The notes under the pieces were generated by a model. It worked only from the letters and a program-made list of their open reading frames with translations, had not been told where the DNA came from and did not search any database. A stretch of DNA of 64,000 nt from an uncultured Gammaproteobacteria bacterium (GTDB taxonomy: Bacteria > Pseudomonadota > Gammaproteobacteria > PS1 > Pseudothioglobaceae). Every line of letters starts with the position of its first letter. Within the stretch, counting starts at the first letter, position 1. Made by a program: the position numbers and the translations under genes. The stretch is taken from contig CAJWTP010000001.1 of the NCBI GenBank assembly GCA_913047325.1, positions 1 to 64,000 of the forward strand, in the 5' to 3' direction. Positions 6,336 to 41,554 of this stretch are shown in pieces.

Positions 6336-6515
6336 ATATGAAAAAAATATGCTTGAAATAGATATATTTAGCTATTTTATTGAGTGTAAAATTGCTTTTG
6401 CTGGTAAAGATTCAGCTGATGTTTGCTTTTGTGTTGTTGATTGACTAACTCTCGGTTTCACAGTAAATTTTCTTAGTTGTATATTTCCCGCTTTTTATTT
6501 TTTTTAGGAGACTTC

Positions 6516-6722
6516 ATGTCTACAACAACAGGTCGCGTCAAATGGTTTGACGCAAAAAAAGGTTTTGGATTTATTGAACAAGAAGACGGCGATGACGTCT
6601 TTGTTCACTTTAGAGCCATTAATTCCGAAGGCTACAAAACTCTTGACGAAGGTCAAGAAGTAGAGTTCGAGCTAGAAGATGGTGAAAAAGGTCCACAAGC
6701 GGCCAACGTAGTACCAAAATAG
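6516..6722 (+). CDS. Cold shock protein (CspA family); ORF track start at 6477 is probably too far upstream
   Basis: [35 protein letters not shown]; aggag SD before ATG 6516. Confidence 0.95.
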
Positions 6723-6740
6723 TTACTGGTTATTCCGATT

Positions 6741-6768
6741 AACTCAGCTTAATTGCTGAGTTTTTTAT
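6741..6768 (+). terminator. Intrinsic terminator of csp
   Basis: AACTCAGCttaattGCTGAGTTTTTTATTT. Confidence 0.85.
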
Positions 6769-23989: not shown

Positions 23990-26263
23990 ATGCTGGATTC
24001 TTTTTTCAATTTCTTGACAAAAAGACCAGCTAGGTCTTTAGCCCTTCTATTTGTTGCATTAGGGATAATTTTTTCGCAGATTCAATATTTCTCACTTGAC
24101 GCTTCTGAGGACTCTCTTTCCTTGGATGGCGACGAGGATTTAGCTCTTTACAACGAAACAATAGAAACTTTCGGTTCGCTTGATACACTGATTATCAGCT
24201 ACACAGCAAGTGATAGTGTCTTAAAGCCAGATCAGCTACAGCATTTAAGAGCTTTTAGAGATGAGCTTCTTTTGATAGAGAAAATTAACACTGTTACTTC
24301 GATTCTAGATGCCTCTCTTTTCAAGTCTCCACCGCTCAATCTTATAGAGTTAGTCAGCGATATTTATACTATTGATAATGGTAAAGCCGATATGTCGCTT
24401 GTCGAAAACGAATTCAAATCAAGTCCACTATATGCAAATAATCTCGTCAGTGAGGATGGAAATACAACAGCATTGTTAATTACCCTTAAAACAGCAAATG
24501 AACTAGGTATAGCTGATAGCGATATCTTAGAAAGCGCAGTGGATGAAATACGCCAAACCATTGACAAATACCGAGACAGCGCCCAACTCTTTCTTGGCGG
24601 TGTCCCTATGATCAGGAATGATGTAATTTTATTCATTGCAAAGGACATTATTGTATTTAGTGTGTCTGTTATTGCGTTAATGTCAGTCATTCTGGCATTT
24701 ATTTTTCGTGGCGTTAGGTGGGTCTTAATTCCTATATTAGTCAGTACATGTGGCGCACTAGTCATGACAGGAGTCATTGGCGCTCTGGGATGGAAGGTAA
24801 CTATAATATCGGCAAACTTTTTTTCTTTATTGCTTGTTTTAACGCTTTCTATAAATATTCATTTAGTAGTTAGATATAGGGAGCTTGCACAAACCTATCC
24901 GGATTTGGCGTTAAATGATTTGGTGATAAAGACATTGCAACAGATGCTTAAGCCTTGTGTTTTCACAACCCTCACAACGGTTGCAGCTTTTGCATCGTTT
25001 ACTATGAGCAATGTTCGTCCCGTAATTGATTTTGGCTGGATGATGTCGATTGGCGTTTGCATCTCCCTAACTGTCTCTTTTGTAGCTTTCCCCGTTTTAA
25101 TGAGCCTCATGTCTAAACCAAAAGTTAAAACTCATGAAACAGAACTTCCGATTGTACAAAAAATGGCTTATTTCACGGATAAATACGGTAGTCAGCTTAC
25201 TGCTTTTTCGTTACTTTTAGTTGTTATATGTTTATTTGGCGTTAGTAAACTTGGAGTCGAAAATCGCTTTATCGATTATTTTAAAAAGTCAACCGAAATA
25301 AACCAAGGACTCACTTTTATAGACCAAAAACTAGGTGGAACTGTGCCTCTGGAAATCATATTTGATGATCTTGCTAGTGACTATTGGGCTGATGAAACAC
25401 TAAGAAAAGACTTTCACAAAGTCCATCAGTATGTTGAAAGCCTCGATGCCACAGGAAAGGTTCTCTCAATTGATACATTAATGGAAGTGCTATCGCAAGC
25501 AAATGACAATAAAATGCCTAACGGTTTTTTACTTTCAATTGGAAGAAATAAAATGCCTCAGAGTTCCAAATCCCAGGTGCTTGATCCCCACATATCTGAC
25601 AAAACTGACCAACTCAGACTGATTGCCCGCATCAAAGAGACTGACCAAAATCTTAATAGAAATGAACTCATTAATGACATTCGCATGCAACTAATAAATG
25701 GATTTGGCTTCAAGCCAGACAGCTTCCAATTCACCGGATCCTTTACCCTTTATAACAACCTACTCGAAAGTTTATTTGACTCACAAATTCGATCTATTGC
25801 GGTTGTCTTTTTTATTATCTTTGTAATGTTTTTATTTATTTTTAGATCAATAAGCATATCTGTATTGGCAATCATACCCAATATGCTGCCATCCCTTTTT
25901 ATACTTGGAATTATGGGTTTGGCGAATATTCCTTTAGATATTATGACTATAACTATAGCAGCCATTGCGATTGGCATAGGAGTGGACAACGCAATTCACT
26001 ATATTCATCGCTTTAAAGCTGAATTAATGAAAGATAATGACTATAGAGCGGCGATGTATCGTTCTCATGGTTCGATTGGGCTAGCAATGCTATATACTGC
26101 TGTGACTGTTGCAATCGGTTTTTCGGTCTTGATTTTGTCAAATTTTATACCGAGTATTTATTTTGGTGTTTTTACAGCCATTGCTATGTTGAGCGCTTTT
26201 ATAGTCAACCTAACTTTACTGCCAAAATTGATACAAATATTCAAACCAACAATGAATAATTAA
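23990..26263 (+). CDS. RND superfamily (MMPL-type) exporter
   Basis: About 12 TM segments, GIGVDNAIHYIHRF, duplicated RND architecture. Confidence 0.9.
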   Translation: MLDSFFNFLTKRPARSLALLFVALGIIFSQIQYFSLDASEDSLSLDGDEDLALYNETIETFGSLDTLIISYTASDSVLKPDQLQHLRAFRDELLLIEKINTVTSILDASLFKSPPLNLIELVSDIYTIDNGKADMSLVENEFKSSPLYANNLVSEDGNTTALLITLKTANELGIADSDILESAVDEIRQTIDKYRDSAQLFLGGVPMIRNDVILFIAKDIIVFSVSVIALMSVILAFIFRGVRWVLIPILVSTCGALVMTGVIGALGWKVTIISANFFSLLLVLTLSINIHLVVRYRELAQTYPDLALNDLVIKTLQQMLKPCVFTTLTTVAAFASFTMSNVRPVIDFGWMMSIGVCISLTVSFVAFPVLMSLMSKPKVKTHETELPIVQKMAYFTDKYGSQLTAFSLLLVVICLFGVSKLGVENRFIDYFKKSTEINQGLTFIDQKLGGTVPLEIIFDDLASDYWADETLRKDFHKVHQYVESLDATGKVLSIDTLMEVLSQANDNKMPNGFLLSIGRNKMPQSSKSQVLDPHISDKTDQLRLIARIKETDQNLNRNELINDIRMQLINGFGFKPDSFQFTGSFTLYNNLLESLFDSQIRSIAVVFFIIFVMFLFIFRSISISVLAIIPNMLPSLFILGIMGLANIPLDIMTITIAAIAIGIGVDNAIHYIHRFKAELMKDNDYRAAMYRSHGSIGLAMLYTAVTVAIGFSVLILSNFIPSIYFGVFTAIAMLSAFIVNLTLLPKLIQIFKPTMNN

Positions 26264-26274
26264 TGAATCGGAAA

Positions 26275-26310
26275 TTAAAAAACCCCGTATCGAATAAGAG
26301 TACGGGGTTA
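26275..26310 (-). terminator. Intrinsic terminator oriented on the minus strand
   Basis: Minus strand ACCCCGTA-CTCTTATTCGA-TACGGGGT followed by TTTTTT; plus side lacks a T-run after the hairpin. Confidence 0.8.
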
Positions 26311-26357
26311 GTCTACTAAAGGAGAGAAATGAGTCAACTAGTAGGTTTTAACTCAGG
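26275..26357 (-). ncRNA. Candidate orphan sRNA with anti-Shine-Dalgarno loop
   Basis: TATAAT box at 26363-26368 (minus), then GCCTGAGTTAAAAC-CTACTA-GTTGACTCATTTCTCTCCTT-TAGTAG-ACTA-terminator hairpin-T6; neighbouring genes both on plus strand. Confidence 0.6.
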
Positions 26358-26445
26358 CGCGTATTATATACAAAAAATAATTTAATGCTAATTAATTTTT
26401 TTCACTATATGAATTAATTTTTTCCTAATTTTATTCATAAAAAAA

Positions 26446-28005
26446 ATGACAAAACAATACCATTTTGATGTACTAATTATCGGCTCTGGGGCAGCTGGAT
26501 TAATGAGTGCATTGGAGCTTTCTGAAGAGCTTTCAATTGCACTAATTGCCAAAGACAAATTCCTCGAAAGCTCTTCTTTCTATGCTCAGGGTGGTATTTC
26601 TGCAGTACTAGATTCAAATGATAATTTCGCTTCTCATATAGCAGATACAATAAACACTGCTTGCGGAATTGGAAATAAAGAAAGCATTCGTTTCATGGTT
26701 GAAAATGCACCAGATGCAATTAAAGACCTAGAGGATGCAGGTGTTGAATTTTCCCAACAAGAAGGTAGCTATGACCTTACAACTGAGGGTGGTCATAGTT
26801 CAAAACGTGTCGCCCACGTTGCTGACAAAACTGGCCAGTCAGTTCAGACTAGCCTTCTGGCCCAGGCAATGAATAAAGCAAATATCACTCTATTCGAGCA
26901 ACATCTGGCAATAGATTTGATAGCTGACAATAACTCTTGCAATGGAGCTTATATTCTAGATAAAAGGTTAAATGAAGTCTCTACCTTTTCATCTCACAGA
27001 ACTATTTTAGCCACAGGAGGCGCATCAAAAACTTACCTCTACACTTCTAATCCAGATACATCTACCGGCGATGGTATTGCGATGGCATATAGGTCTGGCT
27101 GTGAAATTGTAAATATGGAATTCACACAATTTCATCCAACCTGTCTATTCCATCCACACGCAAAATCCTTCCTAATTTCAGAAACTCTTCGTGGCGAAGG
27201 CGCGAAACTAACTCTTCCAAATGGTAAAAGTTTTATGCAAAATTATGATGAACGCCTCGAACTCGCGCCACGAGATATTGTCGCAAGAGCAATCGATCAT
27301 GAAATGAAAGTGCATGGCTTTGATTGTGTTTATCTAGATATATCATTTAAAGATAGCAACTGGATTGTTGAGCGTTTTCCTACTATTACCAAACGCTGCC
27401 ATGAATTAGGGATTGATATCTGTAACGACCCCTTACCGGTTGTTCCTGCTGCACACTATACCTGCGGAGGTATAAACACTGATATAAATGCTAAAAGTGG
27501 GATTAATAATTTATATGCGGTTGGTGAAGTCGCATATACCGGAGTTCATGGGGCAAATAGGATGGCCAGTAACTCGCTGCTCGAATGTATTGTATTTGCT
27601 AAGTCTTGCGCAAAACATATTAATGATAACTTTACTAGAGAAGCTTTAAAGGCTAATAAAGATTGGGATGCTTCCAGAGTAGAACCGTCAAAAGAAAAGG
27701 TGCTTGTGGCCCATTTGTGGGATGAAGTGAGAAGAATAATGTGGAATTTCGTTGGTATTGTTAGAAGTGACAGAAGATTACAAACAGCCCATCAAAGATT
27801 GAACCAAATTCATCAAGAGGTAGACGATTATTACAGCTCATATACACTTACTAATGACTTAATTGAGTTAAGAAACCTCGTACAAACAGCACAAATTATT
27901 GTAGAATCCGCGCTTTCTAGAAAAGAGAGCAGGGGATTGCATTACAATGTTGATCACCCTGAACAGACAATGAAAGAATCTAATAGCGTTATTATAAAAC
28001 CATGA
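26446..28005 (+). CDS. nadB: L-aspartate oxidase
   Basis: [63 protein letters not shown]. Confidence 0.97.
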
Positions 28006-41271: not shown

Positions 41272-41278
41272 AAGAGTA

Positions 41279-41449
41279 TCTGTTGTGCTCGTGCTTTGAT
41301 TTATTTACCTGAGCCGATTAATTTTATAACAGGAGATGAGATTGGTTGCTATTGTGTATGCCTGCCTATGAGCGGGAAACCTACGGCAAACATCGAACTT
41401 CCACCTTGAGCTAAGTGCTTCAGGACCATTTCAACACGGCACAACGGAC
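41279..41449 (+). ncRNA. ssrS: 6S RNA candidate
   Basis: Located directly upstream of ygfA; contains ACCTGAGCCGATT and CCACCTTGAGCTAAG typical of proteobacterial 6S; ends pair (TCTGTTGTGC with GCACAACGGA). Confidence 0.8.
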
Positions 41450-41554
41450 CCTTTTCATAGTTTAATTGTCTAGTTTCTCTATTAATTTGCCTACAGGTAG
41501 TTTTCCAATCAATTGTACTGCTAAAATTAATCAATCATTTGTATTATAGTTTGA

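Follow-up and report, generated by a model that had tools for sequence, protein, structure and literature searches.

The nearest described counterparts of the small RNA (sRNA) considered in this study come from rhizobia. In AbcR1, AbcR2 and NfeR1, unpaired anti-Shine-Dalgarno (anti-SD) motifs repress the translation of mRNAs encoding the periplasmic substrate-binding proteins (SBPs) of ABC transporters, a mode of action that has been established experimentally (PMC8844928). The sibling sRNAs NmsR/RcoF of Neisseria (NgncR_162/163) have metabolic and nutrient-uptake targets (PMC5362039, PMC9973317), and GcvB of Enterobacteria is summarized in one of these sources as repressing many amino-acid ABC-transporter binding-protein mRNAs (PMC9973317). 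RydC is a small sRNA that needs its pseudoknot for stability (PMC4337610). In cyanobacteria, Yfr1 is a conserved sRNA of marine oligotrophs that occupies a fixed gene gap and has porin mRNAs as its demonstrated targets (PMC6778093).

A literature search found no report on sRNAs or Hfq in Ca. Thioglobus or Ca. Pseudothioglobus, a widespread ocean group. The window analysed here, a 64,000-nt stretch of DNA from an uncultured gammaproteobacterium of the Pseudothioglobaceae, carries on its minus strand what is very probably a real orphan sRNA gene.

Genomic setting and transcription signals

The predicted orphan sRNA is about 79 nt long (26277-26355, minus strand). It lies between two plus-strand genes: an RND-superfamily (HAE3/MmpL-like) exporter (23990-26263), its upstream and convergent neighbor, and nadB (26446-28005), from which it diverges and whose leader is not predicted as a target. 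Its 5′ end, near 26355, is placed from the −10 element, and its 3′ end is the U-run. The −10 hexamer TATAAT (26363-26368, minus strand) has a mean pairwise identity of 0.98 in the genus alignment. This hexamer had been recognized in the initial annotation together with a weak −35, TTAGCA, which is indeed present (26386-26391, minus strand); the two are separated by 17 nt, not by the 18 originally given, and the −35 is not conserved in relatives. At the other end, an intrinsic terminator (26277-26308, minus strand) is composed of a hairpin at 26282-26308, ACCCCGTA...TACGGGGT, then T6, which becomes the U-run at 26282-26277. The claim that a minus-oriented terminator sits between the two plus-strand genes withstood comparison within the genus, where pairs swap on both sides with pairing kept (C-G to A-U, G-C to A-U, and C-G to U-A). 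In two sister-genus copies (G073 and G060), the terminator has a different sequence, equally paired and followed by a U-run. A simple terminator scan omits it from its output, probably because the loop exceeds the length which that scan allows. The near-invariant −10 and the covarying minus-strand terminator together mark an independent intergenic gene equipped with a promoter and an intrinsic terminator of its own, as expected of a base-pairing sRNA. An 86-nt RNA has a predicted folding energy of −21.6 kcal/mol, with z = −3.7 against dinucleotide shuffles. Elsewhere, the window holds a 6S RNA (41274-41454, plus strand) and a match to the cspA thermoregulator (6447-6768, plus strand) that is barely above the gathering score.

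Conservation and distribution

BLASTN recovered the element at 77-84% identity in 19 further genomes of this genus, Ca. Thioglobus/Pseudothioglobus of the free-living, marine SUP05 cluster, and all 19 homologues sit between the RND exporter and nadB. A covariance model added three copies in two sister genera (G032, G073, and G060), again in the RND-nadB gap, bringing the total to 22 other genomes, or 23 genomes in three genera with the window included. Mean pairwise identity in the genus alignment is 0.93 across the RNA, as against 0.71 in the nadB-ward stretch and 0.63 past the terminator, with 0.80 at the RND coding end. Because 19 same-genus and three other-genus homologues share a single gap, with 93% identity inside the RNA versus 63-71% in the flanks, this conservation exceeds chance. 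The survey of relatives that had been proposed as a check thus turned out favorably: the anti-SD segment and the arms of both hairpins are kept, and the terminator varies with compensation.

The distribution is narrow. A pattern scan of the GTDB collection returned 15 matches, all in Ca. Thioglobus, Ca. Pseudothioglobus, SUP05/PS1, or unclassified Gammaproteobacteria/Thiotrichales. A class-wide covariance model search of 369 genomes gave only three matches outside the family, with E values of 0.004-0.017 per genome, about chance level. Weak covariance model matches in G070, G071, G063, G078, and G079 were discarded as homologues, being by eye ordinary terminators or coding sequence. No element was found in viral contigs or phages, and a phage origin was rejected on that account. 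In G015 and the other genera examined, nadB is kept without the element, nearly always with the RND gene close upstream. The G015 locus (L061/L078) retains the RND-nadB arrangement and a nadB that is 78% identical, and the sRNA is cleanly gone from the gap; this points to a recent loss that could serve as a natural knockout. Eight genomes of the same genus that are without the element (G008, G009, G021-G025, and G027) are also without a nadB match. These genomes are 54-89% complete, and the joint absence of nadB and the sRNA exceeds what completeness makes likely; perhaps de novo NAD synthesis was lost in a subclade to which they belong. Most same-genus relatives (e.g., L005, L010, L014, and L019) share a conserved TTGTYACAAAAAGACACAAAA block between nadB and the sRNA −10 that is missing in the window copy and in L002-L004. 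This block may be a site for a regulator or may belong to the nadB promoter.

RNA architecture and the anti-SD segment

From 5′ to 3′, the RNA is arranged as S1a, S2a, S1b, seed, and S2b, such that two helices interleave. Helix S1 joins GAGUUAA (26348-26354, minus strand) to UUGACUC (26331-26337, minus strand) and is paired in every homologue examined, most relatives having AAGUUAA/UUAACUU instead. Its outer pair is A-U, G-U, or G-C among homologues, and this outer pair alone is counted as S1 variation, the hand alignment of G060 being off by one register. Helix S2 joins CUACUA (26339-26344, minus strand), which lies within the S1 loop and is invariant save in G060, to UAGUAG (26313-26318, minus strand), which is invariant across the homologues examined. 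S2 had been described as a CTACTA/TAGTAG hairpin closing a 20-nt loop, GUUGACUCAUUUCUCUCCUU. The hairpin and its loop are present. The region is not merely a stem with a 20-nt loop, however, because a competing or interleaved 5′ helix, S1, is equally conserved; it is the most robust additional helix and had been overlooked. Computed stabilities of S1 alone and S2 alone are similar, and a 7/6-bp knot of the same geometry is possible in just 0.2-1.6% of shuffles. Since S1 and S2 interleave, the 5′ domain should form either an H-type pseudoknot or two exchanging folds. As a model, an H-type pseudoknot with the anti-SD segment as its third loop is plausible; it is unproven because S2, weaker by one pair in G060, is otherwise unchanged, with no compensatory change seen.

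The candidate seed, AUUUCUCUCCUU (26319-26330, minus strand), is where target pairing is predicted. Neither helix includes its UCUCC, which is invariant in all homologues and is the conserved, unpaired anti-SD seed that an AbcR/NfeR1-like mode calls for. The loop had been read as complementary to both a Shine-Dalgarno (SD) sequence and an AUG. The anti-SD half of this proposal stands; the anti-AUG half is limited to the window copy, where S1 ends with a G-C pair, and other copies read differently (e.g., GGAGAAAUAAGUU).

Predicted targets

Target prediction with the loop had been another suggestion of the initial annotation. Ranking was by duplex energy of the conserved loop against positions −40 to +20 of 1676 script-called genes in the complete genome G006. 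Eight of the 12 best predicted targets are periplasmic SBPs, a class that was noticed after the ranking, with PotF-like polyamine, EhuB ectoine, BMP-family, sugar-type, and TctC binders as the top five. The top list also holds many non-SBP genes, and the top targets of two genomes coincide no more with this loop than with control loops. The 32 SBPs of G006 were labelled by eye: eight were confirmed singly, 21 were scanned as a set and all matched SBP families, and three crossing fragment ends were left out of the family scan. A scan of 101 other exported-looking proteins found no SBP family among the 25 commonest families.

Within the set of G006 genes that carry GGAG ahead of the start, computed pairing with the loop is 3.2 kcal/mol stronger for SBPs than for the rest. 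This advantage was matched by three of 200 control loops with the UCUCC core kept and the flanks shuffled, and the top-12 count by one of 200. Half of G028 gave the same direction with less power (controls equalled the SBP advantage in 9/200 and the top-12 count in 29/200), orthologues in the two genomes not being independent. When the 16S tail served as the query, the first 45 genes included no SBP. Each potF leader pairs more favorably with the loop of its own species than with permuted ones, and in a sliding-window control a handful of other windows score equally in this co-variation; G015, a genome that has lost the sRNA, retains the potF SD as well. The neighboring nadB was rejected as a target, having no SD and pairing poorly (−5.9 kcal/mol). 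As a computed class, SBPs are somewhat more likely than not to be the main regulon. Since the seed best matches messages for nutrient-binding proteins, the sRNA probably lowers nutrient uptake.

Host RNA-binding proteins and proposed mode of action

No match to Hfq over the cut-off was found in 25 same-genus genomes or in sampled genomes from nine genera of the family, whereas outside the family, 12 of 15 genomes of the class have it. In G006, miaA is present without an adjoining hfq. ProQ likewise gave nothing over the cut-off in the genus or the sampled family, so that neither of the proteins on which an Hfq- or ProQ-dependent sRNA would rely is detectable in these hosts. CsrA yielded only sub-cut-off fragments, inside long reading frames, in the sampled family. 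That Hfq, ProQ, and CsrA all fail Pfam cut-offs in the nine sampled genera is an unusual joint absence for Gammaproteobacteria. With Hfq and ProQ undetectable, the sRNA must use its own fold or another protein.

The explanation that we favor, with confidence moderately above even, is a trans-acting anti-SD repressor of nutrient-uptake mRNAs with an interleaved-helix fold and an SBP regulon. The orphan, base-pairing RNA would be transcribed divergently from nadB, presumably in response to some physiological trigger, and would end at an intrinsic terminator of its own. The 5′ domain, whether a pseudoknot or exchanging hairpins, would expose the single-stranded seed AUUUCUC(UC)CUU. This seed would pair with ribosome-binding sites that read AAAGGAGA(A/G)AUAA and block translation initiation, the likely main regulon being the mRNAs of periplasmic SBPs that serve transporters of the ABC and related types for polyamines, ectoine, sugars, amino acids, and betaine. 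Conservation supports the earlier interpretation as an sRNA; the translational repression, which now has a computed target class, is inferred. Taken by itself, action as an anti-SD repressor is likely. A broader conjecture, offered tentatively and with more doubt than belief, is that a chaperone-independent sRNA, stabilized by its own pseudoknot, provides a principal post-transcriptional control of nutrient-uptake proteins in abundant, streamlined ocean bacteria that are without Hfq, ProQ, and probably CsrA. The predicted control of SBPs would offer a concrete, testable regulatory handle on how these cells feed. If true, it would extend anti-SD transporter control beyond rhizobia and Neisseria to hosts without detectable Hfq or ProQ, and would therefore bear on how base-pairing sRNAs act without a matchmaker protein.

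Alternative explanations

Conceivably, the RNA has no specific regulon at all and, by mimicking the 16S 3′ tail (CUCCUU), dampens any mRNA with a strong SD. Generic dampening of this kind has reportedly been proposed for the betaproteobacterial toxic sRNA, which, at 22.8 bits, is also the best sub-threshold Rfam match of the element. The seed core does equal part of the 16S tail, and the many non-SBP genes in the top list would be expected. Such a role is nonetheless rather unlikely, because the flanks of the seed are conserved as well, and the SBP preference goes beyond that of controls sharing the same core, while the 16S tail gives none. A conserved RNA might instead be regulatory-inert or bind protein, serving as a decoy or sponge that captures another sRNA or an RNA-binding protein. 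The invariance of the CUACUA and UAGUAG arms without covariation may indicate a role beyond pairing. Yet the strongest invariant unpaired stretch is the anti-SD itself, and CsrA-type binding needs a GGA that is not in the seed, CsrA itself being below the cut-off; this reading is improbable.

The remaining alternatives seek the function at the locus itself. A cis element for nadB or the RND gene, whether it worked as an antisense transcript (divergent or convergent) or through a shared promoter, would account for the invariable location in the RND-nadB gap and for the absence of the element where nadB is missing. It would not account for the invariant anti-SD, and it sits poorly with a nadB that offers neither an SD nor good pairing, with a terminator that ends the RNA before the RND stop codon, and with the RND genes that stand beside nadB without the sRNA in G015 and other genera; we give it a slim chance. 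An 18-codon plus-strand ORF (26329-26385) had been named from the outset as the rival whose conservation would speak against the sRNA. Here the conserved features would be the SD and the start of an ORF for a short peptide or in the nadB leader, and the minus-strand ones coincidental. The spacing of SD and ATG is indeed good in the window copy, but no other homologue has the ATG, and in most the start reads ATA AGT TAA, with a stop two codons on. The compensatory changes and the U-run, for their part, track the minus-strand hairpin. Taken together, the compensated terminator and the loss of the ORF show that conservation acts on a minus-strand RNA, not a peptide; the ORF, contradicted by conservation, was rejected, and its probability is negligible.

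Comparison with known systems

No Rfam family matched the element at its gathering score. The Betaproteobacteria toxic sRNA (RF02278) scored 22.8 bits against a gathering score of 50, NmsRb/RcoF (RF02877) 21.2 against 52, and mmgR/suhB (RF00519) 16.0 against 41, and the element belongs to none of these families. It is not an AbcR (alpha-r15) RNA either: there is not even a sub-threshold Rfam match, and one anti-SD motif stands against two. The toxic sRNA resembles the marine sRNA in having a UCUCCU anti-SD motif ahead of a GC-rich terminator, but is without a helix like S1. GcvB, which is Hfq-dependent and has a G/U-rich seed, is unrelated in sequence. RydC needs Hfq, carries its seed at the 5′ end, and has different targets, and its pseudoknot has only a predicted counterpart in the marine sRNA. 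Yfr1, as well as RepG of Helicobacter, a pairing sRNA from a host without Hfq, differ from the marine sRNA in phylum, sequence, and location.

Closer likenesses are found in Neisseria and the rhizobia. NmsR/RcoF share with the marine sRNA a 5′ hairpin, a UC-rich unpaired anti-SD segment, a second stem-loop, and a terminator, as well as a UCUCCU...UAGACU stretch; they are, however, two tandem copies bound by Hfq, whereas the marine sRNA is a single copy with interleaved helices. The proposed anti-SD mode and the predicted SBP target class match those of AbcR1/2 and NfeR1. These alphaproteobacterial RNAs are 114-121 nt long and carry the anti-SD motif two or three times, and the targets of AbcR overlap with mRNAs that Hfq binds; the marine sRNA, in contrast, is about 79 nt long, carries a single motif, has different flanks and neighbors, and comes from a host without detectable Hfq. 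By analogy, it would operate in a mode like that of rhizobial AbcR/NfeR1 and neisserial NmsR while being a member of neither group, set apart by its interleaved helices, its single short seed, and a host in which neither Hfq nor ProQ is detectable.
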